64,000 nucleotides of DNA from an uncultured Flavobacteriales bacterium. Lineage in GTDB: Bacteria > Bacteroidota > Bacteroidia > Flavobacteriales_D > Sanyastnellaceae. The stretch lies in NCBI GenBank assembly GCA_905479115.1, contig CAJQLF010000002.1, positions 1 through 64,000 of the forward strand, read 5' to 3'. The notes beneath the pieces are model-generated. The model did not search any database, was not told the origin of the DNA, and saw only the letters and a list, made by a program, of their open reading frames with translations. This document shows, piece by piece, positions 3,451 to 42,894 of this stretch (position 1 is the stretch's first letter; each line of letters starts with the position of its first letter). The translations under genes were made by a program, and so were the position numbers.

Positions 3451-3457
3451 AATTGCC

Positions 3458-3646
3458 ATGGCACATCCTAAACGACGCCAAAGTAAAGCCCGGACGCGCA
3501 AGCGCCGCGCCCATGACGCACTAACTGCCCCACAGGTAGCGGCTTGCCCTACCACAGGACAGCCTCACCTTTTCCACCGTGCCCACTGGCATGAAGGAAA
3601 GCTCTATTACAAGGGCAAAGTGGTGATGGAAAAGGCGGAAGCCTAA
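3458..3646 (+). CDS. rpmF: 50S ribosomal protein L32
   Basis: This 62-residue basic protein has the bL32 opening [19 protein letters not shown] followed by the family's central segment with [14 protein letters not shown] and the LYYKGKVV ending. It is a structural protein of the large ribosomal subunit. Only one cysteine of the possible zinc-ribbon set remains (position about 30), so this is the zinc-free type common in Bacteroidota. It is the second gene of the DUF177-rpmF unit and is followed by a clear intrinsic terminator. Confidence 0.97.
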
Positions 3647-3694
3647 CCAAACACATTGATGACTGTTTGATCGACGAACGTCGTTCAGACGATG

Positions 3695-3722
3695 AAAAAG
3701 GGAGGGTTCACCTCCCTTTTTT
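3695..3722 (+). terminator. Intrinsic terminator after rpmF
   Basis: AAAAAGGGAGG (3695-3705), a five-base loop GTTCA, then CCTCCC and six T (3711-3722) form a perfect hairpin with a T tract about 50 bases after rpmF. It separates the ribosomal unit from fabH. Confidence 0.9.
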
Positions 3723-3801
3723 CGTGGCCTAAACTGACGTTATTCCACATTCGCCCTTTGAATACCGGAAAAATTCCCCTTTTTGGCGTGTTTCGACATG
3801 C

Positions 3802-3809
3802 TATCTTTG
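3802..3809 (+). promoter_or_regulatory. Probable -7 box upstream of fabH
   Basis: TATCTTTG matches TAnnTTTG exactly, 29 bases before the fabH start and after the rpmF terminator. A TTG lies 16 bases upstream (3783-3785), shorter than the preferred spacing. Confidence 0.5.
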
Positions 3810-3838
3810 GCGGCTATTTACAACCAACCTAGAAAACT

Positions 3839-8225: not shown

Positions 8226-8234
8226 GAGCGGAAG

Positions 8235-8588
8235 TTAGGGGTTCAATCGATTCGTCGCGGTGTCAGGGAAAACCAATACCGGTTTGTGCGCCCTCGCTTC
8301 TTCGGGTGTCATATGGGCATAAGCAATCACAATGATGATGTCACCAACTTGAACCCTTCTTGCTGCAGGTCCATTCAACCCCACTTGTCCCGAGCCACGC
8401 TCACCTAGAATCGTGTACGTCTCAAATCGTTCGCCGTTGTTGATGTTTACAATTTGAACCTTTTCCCCTTCAAACAAACCTGCAGCATCCATCAAATCGG
8501 GGTCAAGGGTAATCGAACCGATGTAATTCAGATCCGCCTGGGTAACCGTCAGGCGATGCAATTTTGAACGAAGTAGGGTAATCAACAT
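8235..8588 (-). CDS. panD: Aspartate 1-decarboxylase proenzyme
   Basis: PanD makes beta-alanine for pantothenate and coenzyme A. It self-cleaves to create a pyruvoyl cofactor; the cleavage site is Gly24-Ser25 in NYIGSITLD. The protein is 117 residues when started at the ATG at 8588, the normal family length and with the normal opening [16 protein letters not shown]. The frame is open to 8705, but that extension overlaps the preceding gene and has no family match. A TATTTTTG box ends five bases before the ATG, so the mRNA may be leaderless. Confidence 0.95.
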
Positions 8589-8593
8589 GGGCG

Positions 8594-8601
8594 CAAAAAT
8601 A
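8594..8601 (-). promoter_or_regulatory. Probable -7 box of panD, abutting the start codon
   Basis: On the minus strand TATTTTTG is followed by CGCCC and the panD ATG. If used, transcription would begin at or next to the start codon. No TTG is seen at 19 bases upstream. Confidence 0.4.
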
Positions 8602-8617
8602 AGGATTCCAAACTGCT

Positions 8618-38254: not shown

Positions 38255-40074
38255 ATCTGAGGGAACGGCAAGTGGTCATAGGAGGCATTTTCGTTTTGAT
38301 TACGCTCATTTTTATCGGACGGCTCATTCAAATGCAGCTTTATTCAAGCGAATGGAAAGAATACGCTGCACGGCTAACAGAGGAAACTGAACAGCTAGAG
38401 CCAGCTCGGGGGTTAATGCTCGATCGAAACGGCCAAATCCTCCTCAATAACATGGCGGGATACGACATTTGGTTCACTCCACGCAAGTGCCGCACGGCAG
38501 GCGGCTTGGACACCATGGCATTTGCAGAGATCCTCCGAATGACACCCGCTGAATTAGAACGGGAATTCAGGCGAGCTGAAGCCTATGCGTCGTACCGACC
38601 GTCCATCATCCGCAAGCAAATCCCTGCGGAGCACTTCGCCCGAATCGCAGGAGAACTATATCGCTTTCCAGGCGCTGAGGCAAGACGGAGGACCATCCGT
38701 ACCAATCCAACAGGTCTTGCGAGCCACCTCGTCGGGGAATACCGAGAGGTCGATCAAAATGACATGGCATCGAATTCGAGGTATCGGCTCGGCGATTACA
38801 AAGGCAAGTCCGGCCTTGAACTCCAATGGGACCAGGCGCTGCATGGCAAGCGTGGAATCCGCCACCACATCGTTGATATTCGAAATGATTACCGAGCGCC
38901 TGCGCAGGAGGGCTTATTGGATACCCTCCCTACACCGGGACAGGATATCCAATTGACCTTGGATTTGGACTTGCAGGCGTATGGTGAAAATATCATGGCC
39001 AACAAAAGAGGAGCCATTGTCGCCATCGAGCCTTCCACCGGCGAAGTTCTCGCAATGGTGAGTGCCCCGAGCTACGCGACAGATTTACTCACAGGCCGCG
39101 AACGTGGATCGAATTACGACAGCCTGCTCAATCACCCGAGCAAACCGCTTTTTAATCGGACCCTGCGAGCCACCTATCGACCCGGTAGCATTTTTAAGAT
39201 GATTCAAGGATTAATCGCCTTGGACAGGGGAGTCATCCGGCCTTCGAGCCGAATCTATTGTGACCGAAACATCATCGGGTGCCACGGCGGTCACACCTTA
39301 GATAACCTCGAAGAGGCCATCGTCCACTCGTGCAATCCTTATTTTCATGAAGTCATGAAGCGGATGATCCAAGACGGTTCGTCCGGCAATATCTTCCGTG
39401 ATGCACACAACAATTTAGGTGCCTGGTCGGAATCTATACGGGCTTTTGGAATGGGGACGAACCTCGGTGGACATTTCCCCGCTCTGCGCTCTGGAACAGT
39501 CCCCGACACGACCGATTATGACCGGATGTACGGCCGCAAACGATGGGCCTATTCAACCATTTATTCCATTTCAATTGGGGAGGGCGAATTGCTGACTACC
39601 CCGATTCACATGGCTAACTTAGCCGCAGTTTTGGCCAACAGAGGACACTATGTCACTCCTCACGTTATCCAGCACATTGGCGACCTAGGGAAACCGGAAG
39701 AAATGAATCAGCGGTTCGATACGGGAATCGACCCCATTCACTTCGAAACAGTTATTCGTGCTATGGCACAGGTCGTGACGGCAGAGGATGGAACGGGCAG
39801 CCGCGCTCAAGTGCCTGGCTTTGATGTCTGCGGCAAAACCGGTACCGTTCAAAATTCACAAGGCAATCATTCCGTATTCATCGCTTTTGCGCCGAAGAAC
39901 AATCCCCAAATCGCCCTGAGCGTGTATGTCGAAAATGCCGGTTCTGGTGGAGATTGGGCGGCGCCTATTGCGAGTTTAATGATTGAACGATACCTCAATG
40001 GAACCGTGGAACAGCGCGAAAAAGAAGACCGAATTCTGCAGGCGACCTATCCTTTTCCAGAATCACCCTTATGA
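38251..40074 (+). CDS. mrdA: Penicillin-binding protein 2 (elongation transpeptidase)
   Basis: PBP2 cross-links new lateral peptidoglycan. The 607-residue protein has one membrane helix (about 8-27), a PBP dimerisation domain (LEPARGLMLDRNG) and a transpeptidase domain with Ser313-x-x-Lys316 (PGSIFKM), Ser-Cys-Asn at 360-362 and Lys-Thr-Gly at 529-531. A frame open to 38071 overlaps mreD; the ATG at 38251, overlapping the mreD stop by four bases, gives the normal N-terminus. rodA follows with another four-base overlap. Confidence 0.95.
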   Translation: MNLRERQVVIGGIFVLITLIFIGRLIQMQLYSSEWKEYAARLTEETEQLEPARGLMLDRNGQILLNNMAGYDIWFTPRKCRTAGGLDTMAFAEILRMTPAELEREFRRAEAYASYRPSIIRKQIPAEHFARIAGELYRFPGAEARRRTIRTNPTGLASHLVGEYREVDQNDMASNSRYRLGDYKGKSGLELQWDQALHGKRGIRHHIVDIRNDYRAPAQEGLLDTLPTPGQDIQLTLDLDLQAYGENIMANKRGAIVAIEPSTGEVLAMVSAPSYATDLLTGRERGSNYDSLLNHPSKPLFNRTLRATYRPGSIFKMIQGLIALDRGVIRPSSRIYCDRNIIGCHGGHTLDNLEEAIVHSCNPYFHEVMKRMIQDGSSGNIFRDAHNNLGAWSESIRAFGMGTNLGGHFPALRSGTVPDTTDYDRMYGRKRWAYSTIYSISIGEGELLTTPIHMANLAAVLANRGHYVTPHVIQHIGDLGKPEEMNQRFDTGIDPIHFETVIRAMAQVVTAEDGTGSRAQVPGFDVCGKTGTVQNSQGNHSVFIAFAPKNNPQIALSVYVENAGSGGDWAAPIASLMIERYLNGTVEQREKEDRILQATYPFPESPL

Positions 40075-41393
40075 GACGCACGGCTCCCATCATTCAGCGC
40101 ATCGATTGGCTCACCGTCGCCATTGTGGTCATTCTCATGGCCATAGGACTCTTCAACGTTGCTAGCGCCACTGCCGGTGCCGACGCCGTGGATTGGTTCG
40201 ATTGGGGAAGCAAACAGGGGAAGCAGTTTATGTGGGTCGCCTTGGCAATGATATTGGCCGGGCTCATCCTCGTCATTGAAGGCGAATTTTTCATTCGCAC
40301 AGCCGCCATTTATTACTTCGTCAATCTCTTGCTGCTGGTTGCCGTTTTGGCTGTTGGCCGAACGATTGGAGGTGCGAAATCTTGGTTCAGTTTTGGCAGC
40401 ATTGGGATACAGCCCTCAGAATTTGCAAAAACCGGTACGGCTTTAATGTTAGCCTGGCTATTGAGCCGCAACAACGAACGTATCAGCAATCGAAACAACC
40501 TGGTTAAAGCGATTCTAATTGTGGCCATTCCCGCTGGCTTGATTCTCCTGCAGCCTGATGCTGGTACCGTATTGGTCTTTGGCGGAATGATCCTCGTATT
40601 CTACCGAGAAGGGCTCTCGGGCAATGTCCTTATCGCTGTTTTCTGTGCTTTGCTCATCGCCATAGCAACGATCTTGACGGGTGCGAGCCTCTTCGAATAT
40701 CCCGCAATCGGAAGCGCATCGGCCGTAGGTATTCTCTGGTTCATCTTAGCCGTTCTCGGCACCTTCATCTGGTCCATGATACCCCAATGGGTCCTGCCGC
40801 GCAAGCGCAAGCGCGTGAGACGTGCGGTAGTTTTTTCATTCATTGCCGGCCTCGTCATGAGCGCCGCACTCCATACCGGCTTAGAAGAAGTACTCAAACC
40901 GCACCAAAAAGATCGGATTCACGTGCTCTTTGGCATTGATGTTGGAAACCCTGATGCGGATTACAACATTCGCCACGCCAAAGCGGCTGTCAGTTCGGGA
41001 AGTTGGACCGGAAAGGGTTACCTCCAAGGTCCGATGACCGCTTATGGTTTCGTACCAGAGCAAGAAACGGACTTTATCTTCTGCACAATCGGAGAAGAGT
41101 GGGGGTTTGTCGGAACCGTCTTTACATTGCTGCTCTATACCTTATTGATGCTGCGAATTCTGCATTTAGCGGAGCGCCAACGAAGTGATTTCACCCGCAT
41201 CTTCGCCTACGCGGCGGCCAGCGTACTCTTCATGCACTACCTCATCAACATTGGCATGGTCCTCGGATTGGCACCCGTCATTGGAATTCCATTGCCCTTT
41301 ATTAGCGCTGGAGGATCGTCGATGCTGGGGTTCACCTTGCTTATTTTCATCCTTTTACGCCTTGACGCAGAAAGATTCACAGTTCTCCGTTAA
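40071..41393 (+). CDS. rodA: SEDS peptidoglycan polymerase RodA
   Basis: RodA polymerises lipid II together with PBP2. The 440-residue SEDS protein has about ten membrane helices and signatures RTIGGAKSWFSFGSIGIQPSE (split here by one helix end), a large periplasmic loop with the catalytic-type segment SWTGKGYLQGPMTAYGFVPEQ followed by ETDFIFCTIGEEWGF, and the final PLPFISAGGSSMLGF. Its place after mrdA makes RodA more likely than FtsW. It is longer than E. coli RodA, with an inserted basic loop near PRKRKRVRRAVVF. The unit ends here. Confidence 0.95.
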   Translation: MRRTAPIIQRIDWLTVAIVVILMAIGLFNVASATAGADAVDWFDWGSKQGKQFMWVALAMILAGLILVIEGEFFIRTAAIYYFVNLLLLVAVLAVGRTIGGAKSWFSFGSIGIQPSEFAKTGTALMLAWLLSRNNERISNRNNLVKAILIVAIPAGLILLQPDAGTVLVFGGMILVFYREGLSGNVLIAVFCALLIAIATILTGASLFEYPAIGSASAVGILWFILAVLGTFIWSMIPQWVLPRKRKRVRRAVVFSFIAGLVMSAALHTGLEEVLKPHQKDRIHVLFGIDVGNPDADYNIRHAKAAVSSGSWTGKGYLQGPMTAYGFVPEQETDFIFCTIGEEWGFVGTVFTLLLYTLLMLRILHLAERQRSDFTRIFAYAAASVLFMHYLINIGMVLGLAPVIGIPLPFISAGGSSMLGFTLLIFILLRLDAERFTVLR

Positions 41394-41437
41394 TCGACAT
41401 TATACAGCTCTTTGTCGTAATTAATAGCGCATTCACT

Positions 41438-41467
41438 TTGTTTATAGCGTGATTTGCACTATATTTG
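41438..41467 (+). promoter_or_regulatory. Full consensus promoter in the non-coding interval after rodA
   Basis: TTG at 41438-41440 and TATATTTG at 41460-41467 are separated by exactly 19 bases. No start codon with a reading frame of any length follows; two hairpin terminators do. Predicted transcription start is about 41472-41475. Confidence 0.75.
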
Positions 41468-41473
41468 TACGTG

Positions 41474-41537
41474 CTTTGTTTAGAATAGAAATAACCCCAT
41501 TGCGACCCGTTCAACCGGAAGCAATGAGGTTTTTTTG
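41474..41537 (+). ncRNA. Candidate short non-coding RNA
   Basis: The interval from the predicted start (about 41474) to the first terminator's T run (41530-41536) would give an RNA of about 64 bases, or about 130 if transcription reads through to the second hairpin at 41577-41605. The 5' third is A/T-rich and single-stranded in appearance; the rest folds into a long hairpin with an 11-bp stem and a structured 17-base apical part. I do not recognise a known RNA family. It could also be the leader-less start of a decayed gene or simply an isolated promoter. Confidence 0.45.
41493..41537 (+). terminator. First hairpin terminator of the candidate RNA
   Basis: AACCCCATTGC (41493-41503) pairs with GCAATGAGGTT (41521-41531) with one C-A mismatch, followed by a T run to 41536. 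The apical 17 bases contain a further small CCG/CGG stem. Confidence 0.7.
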
Positions 41538-41576
41538 TTCCCTAAATTCAAGGCGAGCAAAACAATCAAACCGGAG

Positions 41577-41605
41577 ACCCCGTGCCCTTGAGGTACGGGG
41601 TTTTT
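41577..41605 (+). terminator. Second hairpin terminator, 40 bases further on
   Basis: ACCCCGTGCC (41577-41586), loop CTTGA, GGTACGGGGT (41592-41601) with one G-T wobble, then TTTTT. The T run is on the plus strand; the odhB 3' end on the other strand lies 30 bases away and may also use the stem. Confidence 0.8.
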
Positions 41606-41634
41606 GCTTTGATACAGGTCGTTTAAATCGAGGC

Positions 41635-42894
41635 CTAAAGTCCCAGCAGAACCTCTTCAGGACTCTTGCCCGTGAAGAGAAGTCGCTCAGGTTGCTCGAT
41701 CATCTCTTTGATCGCATAGAGAAAGCTCACACTTTCTTTGCCATCAATGATGCGGTGATCATAGCTCAAGGCCAAGTACATGACAGGACGAATTTCCACC
41801 TGACCGTTAATCGCTACCGGACGCTCAACAATGTTATGCATACCGAGAATGGCACTCTGAGGAGGATTGATAATTGGCGTTGACAACATCGACCCGAAAA
41901 CGCCCCCATTGGTAATGGTGAAGGTACCACCCGTCATTTCCTCGATGGCCAGTTCCCCATCTCGGGCACGAATCGCTAACCGCTTAATCTCTGCTTCAAT
42001 CTCTGCAAGGCTAAGCGTTTCTGCATTGCGAATAACCGGCACCATGAGTCCTTTGGGCGAGCTCACTGCAATGCCAATGTCCGCATACTCGGGCAGAATG
42101 ACTTCCTTTCCATCGATCGTCCCATTCACTGCTGGAAATTGAGAAATCGCATGCGTTACCGCTTTGGTAAAGAAACTCATGAATCCAAGGCCGACGCCAT
42201 GTTCCTCGCGAAATGCTTCTTTGTACTTCTTGCGCAAATCCATCACCGGCTTCATGTCCACCTCATTGAACGTGGTTAACATGGCCGTCTCGTTTTTAAC
42301 GCCGACTAGGCGCTCTGCAACCTTGCGGCGCAGCATGGACATCTTCTCACGTCTCACGTCCCTAGAACCGCCCCACCCTTGAGCGGAAGCGCCTTCAAAT
42401 CCAGTCGCGAGGGCATTGAGCACATCCTGCTTGAGGATGCGGCCATCCCGGCCTGTCCCCTTCACTTGACCTTGCTTTAAGCCCGCATCGGCCATGAGCT
42501 TTTTCGCAGCCGGAGAGGGATGATCAGACGCATGGTGCTCGGTTGAAGCAACGGGAGCTGGTGTCGGCGAAGAGGGCTTGGAAACTGCCGCAGGGGCAGG
42601 AGCAGCGACCGCCGCAGGGGCGGGCACAGGAGCCTCAACCACTTTGGGAGGCTTGGCCGATGTGTCAATCAAGCAGCACACCGAGCCCACTTCGATCGTA
42701 TCACCTTCTTCGGCTTTCAACGTGATCACGCCTGCCGCTTCTGCGGGTAATTCTAGGGTGGCTTTATCGGAATCTACTTCCGCGATGGCTTGATCTTTTT
42801 GGACATAGTCCCCGTCCGAGACCAACCACGTTGCAATTTCAACTTCACTGATGGACTCCCCGGGGCTGGGGACTTTCATTTCGAGTTGGGACAT
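41635..42894 (-). CDS. odhB: 2-oxoglutarate dehydrogenase E2 (dihydrolipoyllysine succinyltransferase)
   Basis: E2 moves the succinyl group from E1 to CoA. The 419-residue protein has a lipoyl domain with Lys44 in [15 protein letters not shown], an Ala/Pro-rich linker (about 80-115), a peripheral-subunit-binding domain ([31 protein letters not shown]) and the catalytic domain with [19 protein letters not shown] and [13 protein letters not shown] carrying the active His and Asp. It follows odhA by 102 bases on the same strand. The neighbouring E1 type shows that the complex is for 2-oxoglutarate rather than pyruvate. Confidence 0.95.

Follow-up and report, generated by a model that had tools for sequence, protein, structure and literature searches.

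The gap between the convergent genes rodA and odhB/sucB in the genome of an uncultured Flavobacteriales bacterium raises the question of whether it encodes a small RNA, and of what kind. The window analysed here is a stretch of 64,000 nucleotides from a genome of 2.27 Mb. The genes, named by NCBIfam, lie at 40071-41393 on the + strand (rodA) and 41635-42894 on the - strand (odhB/sucB), with 241 bases between them. A sequence-only reading of the window had proposed a discrete small RNA in this gap, with a promoter followed by two tandem terminators. The gap was also taken for the sole non-coding interval of notable size in the window. On a naive ORF map this is incorrect, since wider stretches without a long ORF remain near 839-1197, 3451-3838 and 8226-8617. 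The statement that no reading frame begins between the promoter and the hairpins was right in substance, although mechanical frames begin with a GTG at 41449, upstream of hairpin 1, and with an ATG within hairpin 1. A small protein starting at this ATG was rejected, as the frame stops at differing sites in the relatives, has erratic lengths and is not conserved. A search for tRNA and tmRNA genes found none.

The elements of a transcription unit were examined individually. As proposed, a Bacteroidota sigma-A promoter of the form TTTG-N19-TATATTTG is present on the + strand at 41437-41467, and the full motif occurs twice in the 64 kb, where 0.27 occurrences are expected by chance. In promoters of Flavobacterium psychrophilum, the TAnnTTTG box is located at -12 to -5 (PMC9723704), and therefore the start of the RNA was placed near 41472. 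Hairpin 2 (~41573-41605) is present on the + strand and ends in T5. Hairpin 1 (~41493-41530), which had been described as an 11-bp hairpin with a T7 tail, is followed by the T7 but holds one C.A mismatch and therefore has no clean 11-bp stem. Both hairpins folded better than their dinucleotide shuffles (z -3.7 for hairpin 1 and -4.3 for hairpin 2). The 134-nt whole reached -50.7 kcal/mol with a z of -5.65, and none of 200 shuffles was as good. Only hairpin 2 was listed by a simple terminator scan, and hairpin 1 was absent from the list. The features are collected in Table 1.

Table 1. Features of the rodA-odhB gap, with positions in the window and mean pairwise identity among the relatives
Feature	Position	Strand	Identity	Basis
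-33 element TTTG	41437..41440	+		sequence; discernible in most clade A members, weak in B and C
-10 (-7) box TATATTTG	41460..41467	+	0.86	TAnnTTT[GA] in 19/19 RNAs
Predicted sRNA transcript, about 130-134 nt	41472..41605	+		placed by promoter, terminator and the extent conserved among 19 genomes; start accurate to ~2 nt
5' arm of the rod (P1 and P2, 5' strand)	41472..41495	+	0.52	paired with the 3' arm in folds of single sequences and of clades; covarying
P3 apical helix, 5' strand CCCAUUGC	41496..41503	+	0.94 (19 genomes)	paired in 96.7% of cells
Variable apical part and loop	41504..41520	+	0.35	
P3 apical helix, 3' strand GCAAUGAG (GCAAUGGG in most relatives)	41521..41528	+	0.89	
3' arm of the rod, including the U7 run	41529..41556	+	0.48	pairs with the 5' arm; U-run not conserved
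Exposed A-rich linker GCAAAACAAUCAAACC, candidate seed	41557..41572	+	0.72	almost always unpaired in folds of single sequences and of clades
Intrinsic terminator (hairpin 2 with U5)	41573..41605	+	0.56	terminator scan; z -4.3; hairpin and U-run in 19/19 RNAs

The conservation of the gap was then followed in the genus, where a DNA search found similar sequence. In all 20 genomes that have both genes, rodA and odhB face each other across 196-256 bases, counted with the stop codons; G003, with a truncated rodA, and G021, without rodA, were left out of the count. The element is present in 19 of these 20 gaps, which have kept the -10 box, the apical helix CCCAUUGY/GCAAUGGG, the linker GCAAAAC-N-AACC, in which GCA.A.C and AACC are invariant, and the 3' terminator. 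The mean pairwise identity is 0.46 from the rodA stop to the -33 element, 0.43 in the promoter spacer and 0.24 in the downstream flank. High identity is restricted to the functional parts (-10 box, P3 and linker), in contrast to the loop and the downstream flank. Drifted hairpins between conserved flanks had been named as evidence against a small RNA. The opposite was observed, with conserved hairpins between drifted flanks.

In the remaining genome (G007, gap L049) a decayed copy was found, where the -10 box and the rod are lost and traces of the linker and the terminator remain. In a RodA tree the RNA occurs in all three clades with a single decay, and G007 is nested in clade A. Since clades A, B and C all carry the RNA, the ancestor of the genus had it, and from its position inside clade A it follows that G007 has lost it. 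The RNA is therefore not indispensable. If the assembly is right, G007 is a natural loss mutant.

Single-sequence and clade-wise folds agreed on a rod in which the 5' end pairs with the stretch 3' of hairpin 1 and P3 is on top. The unpaired linker and then the terminator hairpin are predicted to follow. This fold bears on the two terminators in tandem, which had been expected to yield products of about 64 and 130 nt. Some genomes do carry a U-run behind hairpin 1, U7 in G000 and G005 and U4-U6 in clades B and C, so that partial early termination is possible there. No part of the RNA is more conserved than the stem of hairpin 1, but the sequence after it varies, with GUUUCCUCAUU in G001, G004 and G013 and GCUUCGUCAUU in G006. 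In five genomes (G001, G004, G006, G012, G013) the stem stays but the U-run is down to UUU or UU. In the predicted fold the run is buried by pairing with the 5' arm. All 19 RNAs keep hairpin 2, followed by a stretch of 4 to 8 U. Since the tail of hairpin 1 is variable and paired with the 5' arm, and hairpin 2 is kept throughout, one RNA of ~132 nt is expected. The longer of the two proposed products is thus retained and the ~64-nt one is not, and tandem termination is highly improbable. By the predicted folds and the comparison of the relatives, hairpin 1 is the tip of a longer rod and not the first of two terminators. In a single genome, a hairpin with a U-tail can be the tip of a larger fold, which only comparison reveals.

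The pairing of the two arms was analysed by comparing the clades. A consensus fold computed from the sequence alignment recovered P3 alone, because the arms shift register between the clades; this was resolved by the clade-wise folds and an arm-swap test. The arms differ between the clades yet pair within each, for example as UUUG/CAAA in clade A and as CACA/UGUG in the same columns in clade B. Pairing was observed in 81.6% of the alignment cells, compared to 73.9% after shuffling and at most 44% when the partners were slid. Two-sided changes were found in 37 cells (17.9 shuffled), and the covariation score was 0.291 (0.187 shuffled). When the arms were swapped, the mean energy was -12.2 kcal/mol for own arms and -7.5 for cross-clade arms, and the observed sum was reached in 0 of 20,000 permutations, where shuffles and permutations alike ignore the relatedness of the sequences. 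Most of the in-register double changes in P1 are common to the four sequences of clade B and may go back to a small number of events. In clade C the pairing of the arms is weak (mean of -9.0 for own arms and -7.8 for swaps within the clade), and the fold z-score is weaker than -2.6 in five of its six rods. Taken together, the sequence comparisons indicate that the two arms have co-evolved.

This covariation argues for an RNA and against a DNA operator or other palindrome; the repeat is present once in the window. The proposal of a discrete small RNA at this locus is strongly supported by its presence at the same place in 19 of 20 genomes, its conserved parts and its covarying arms. With its own predicted promoter, a terminator, a conserved structure and no conserved frame, the gap very probably holds a real structured sRNA gene, whose existence, boundaries and fold are supported by sequence comparison.

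The position between convergent genes and the terminator would also fit a role in cis only, in which the element either ends rodA transcription and separates the converging rodA and odhB transcripts, or is antisense to the 3' end of odhB, and in clade B hairpin 2 has a U-run on the minus strand as well. A terminator, however, requires neither a promoter of its own nor a rod whose arms co-evolve, and P3 and the linker would not have to be invariant, and G033 and L096 from related genera have rodA facing odhB without such an element. We therefore consider an exclusive role in cis very improbable.

The distribution of the RNA was investigated with two covariance models. With the model R1, each of the 19 genomes gave a single strong hit (58-90 bits), and no hit of similar strength was obtained from the 92 genomes that represent the other genera of the family. 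In other genera, different things are located after rodA. The model R2, which includes the -10 box, was run with laxer filters on a set of 38 genomes (37 related or RNA-less) and found nothing credible. Likewise, no credible relative was found with our models in the class-wide sample (R2 over 247 genomes, 246 of them other class members). The best matches outside the genus had E values of 0.03, 0.34 and 0.0014 per genome. On inspection, several proved to be coding DNA or terminators whose stems are of the CCCATT type, and none combines promoter, linker and terminator. A pattern scan of GTDB genome contigs returned the same genus and scattered chance matches, the best being a Bacteroidaceae record with 29.7 bits, and no new group. 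The RNA thus goes back to the ancestor of the genus and has decayed in one species. Within the sensitivity of these searches, in which scores are given to the top candidates of each genome only, it was not detected beyond the genus. Its vertical inheritance as a single copy within the genus is supported by these sequence data.

The sequence-only reading could name no family for the RNA. In agreement, Rfam gave no match in the window at the gathering score, and at lax E-values only terminator-like chance matches at six loci. The literature on an sRNA beside rodA in Bacteroidota yielded nothing relevant. Since the RNA is rod-shaped and neither the 6S-Flavo (RF01685) nor the general 6S model (RF00013) finds a 6S RNA in the genus, 6S RNA was a serious candidate. 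Neither model matched at the locus, and none of their matches in the genus or the order was credible. This non-detection is weak evidence, because these models miss most of the order. The motifs were compared with sub-threshold RF01685 hits from the class. The Bacteroidota 6S consensus has the ends ACUCAAC/GGAGUUU and the apex GCC..GGAU, which can still largely be made out in hits as weak as 38-49 bits. These ends and this apex are absent from all 19 sequences, and the predicted folds have small internal loops only and no large open central bubble. The RNA resembles 6S-Flavo, Bacteroidales-1 (RF01693) and 6S in being a small rod-shaped RNA in single copy, but lacks the conserved ends and apex, a large central bubble and a covariance-model match. 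By the features compared in sequence and predicted fold, it is not a 6S member.

A strongly diverged 6S RNA of this lineage, which would bind the sigma-A RNA polymerase, would share the rod shape and the single copy and would also suit the constitutive-type promoter, but with these features and an Rfam match missing we consider it quite improbable. We give little credence to a related idea, in which the RNA replaces 6S where a recognisable one has been lost or disguised and, as a different rod, would regulate the sigma-A RNA polymerase or another global regulator via P3.

As an observation on the 6S family itself, convincing 6S RNAs with conserved ends and apex were found elsewhere in the class (L124, L125, L127 and others) with 49-83 bits, where the gathering score of RF01685 is 85. 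The Rfam cut-off for RF01685 therefore probably misses many real Bacteroidota 6S RNAs. Separately, a leader that looks like a putative cysteine attenuator occurs twice in tandem in L099 and L105.

For the function of the RNA, the following course can be proposed. The sigma-A RNA polymerase would start near 41472 and stop at hairpin 2, giving a transcript of ~132 nt. This would fold into a rod of ~85-90 nt, formed by the 5' arm and the 3' arm and capped by the near-invariant CCCAUUGC/GCAAUGGG helix, with the A-rich linker exposed downstream, followed by the terminator hairpin. The linker GCAAAAC-N-AACC may act as a seed that pairs with GGUU..GUUUUGC stretches in target mRNAs, and the rod may give stability or bind a protein via P3. 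Hfq would not take part. Dependence on Hfq presupposes that it is encoded in the genome, and Hfq (PF17209) was not detected in 22 genomes, several of which are incomplete, although the same search recovered it from 5 controls; a distant chaperone may be encoded. Expression and action in trans are only inferred here. We estimate a probability of roughly 0.5 for the reading as a whole, namely an independently transcribed non-coding RNA that acts in trans via a linker seed without Hfq.

The mechanism by base pairing is suggested by the conserved and mostly unpaired linker, but this conservation could serve the terminator or a protein instead, and we hold the linker as a trans-acting seed only tentatively, at somewhat less than an even chance. 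In the alternative, a protein that is carried or titrated by the RNA would read the near-invariant P3, and the linker would be a mere spacer. P3, the obvious site for a protein, is indeed kept as sequence on both strands, though any complementary pairs would hold the stem, and the arms, unlike P3, keep their pairing but not their sequence. No known protein-binding motif was recognised, however, and protein binding does not need a conserved linker, yet the linker is conserved. We consider protein binding fairly unlikely and prefer the linker as the putative active part.

Precedents for the action of sRNAs in the phylum are GibS and Rfp18. GibS of Bacteroides thetaiotaomicron is an RNA of ~145 nt with its own promoter and a terminator that acts by base-pairing in a phylum without obvious Hfq (PMC7366714). 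It is largely unfolded with a single-stranded 5' seed (PMC7366714), whereas in the rodA-odhB RNA the 5' end is in the predicted rod and the linker is exposed. Rfp18 of F. psychrophilum is described as having at least 3 stem-loops with the pairing region in the third and as affecting metalloprotease mRNAs (PMC9723704). Compared by description and not by sequence, the two are alike as independent, strongly structured and genus-conserved intergenic sRNAs of flavobacteria (PMC9723704) and differ in architecture. The newly described F. psychrophilum RNAs also have no Rfam family (PMC9723704).

In conclusion, the small RNA gene is genuine and uncatalogued, and its kind, the lineage-specific intergenic sRNA, is common. 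Its support is stronger than could be seen from the sequence alone, and its anatomy differs from the one first proposed. For this well-supported structured RNA gene of an uncultured flavobacterial genus, the boundaries have been delimited, a covariance model has been built and a candidate seed can be named. Trans-acting RNAs in the Bacteroidota that lack Hfq are few and their mechanisms poorly known, and therefore another conserved, deletable example is useful.
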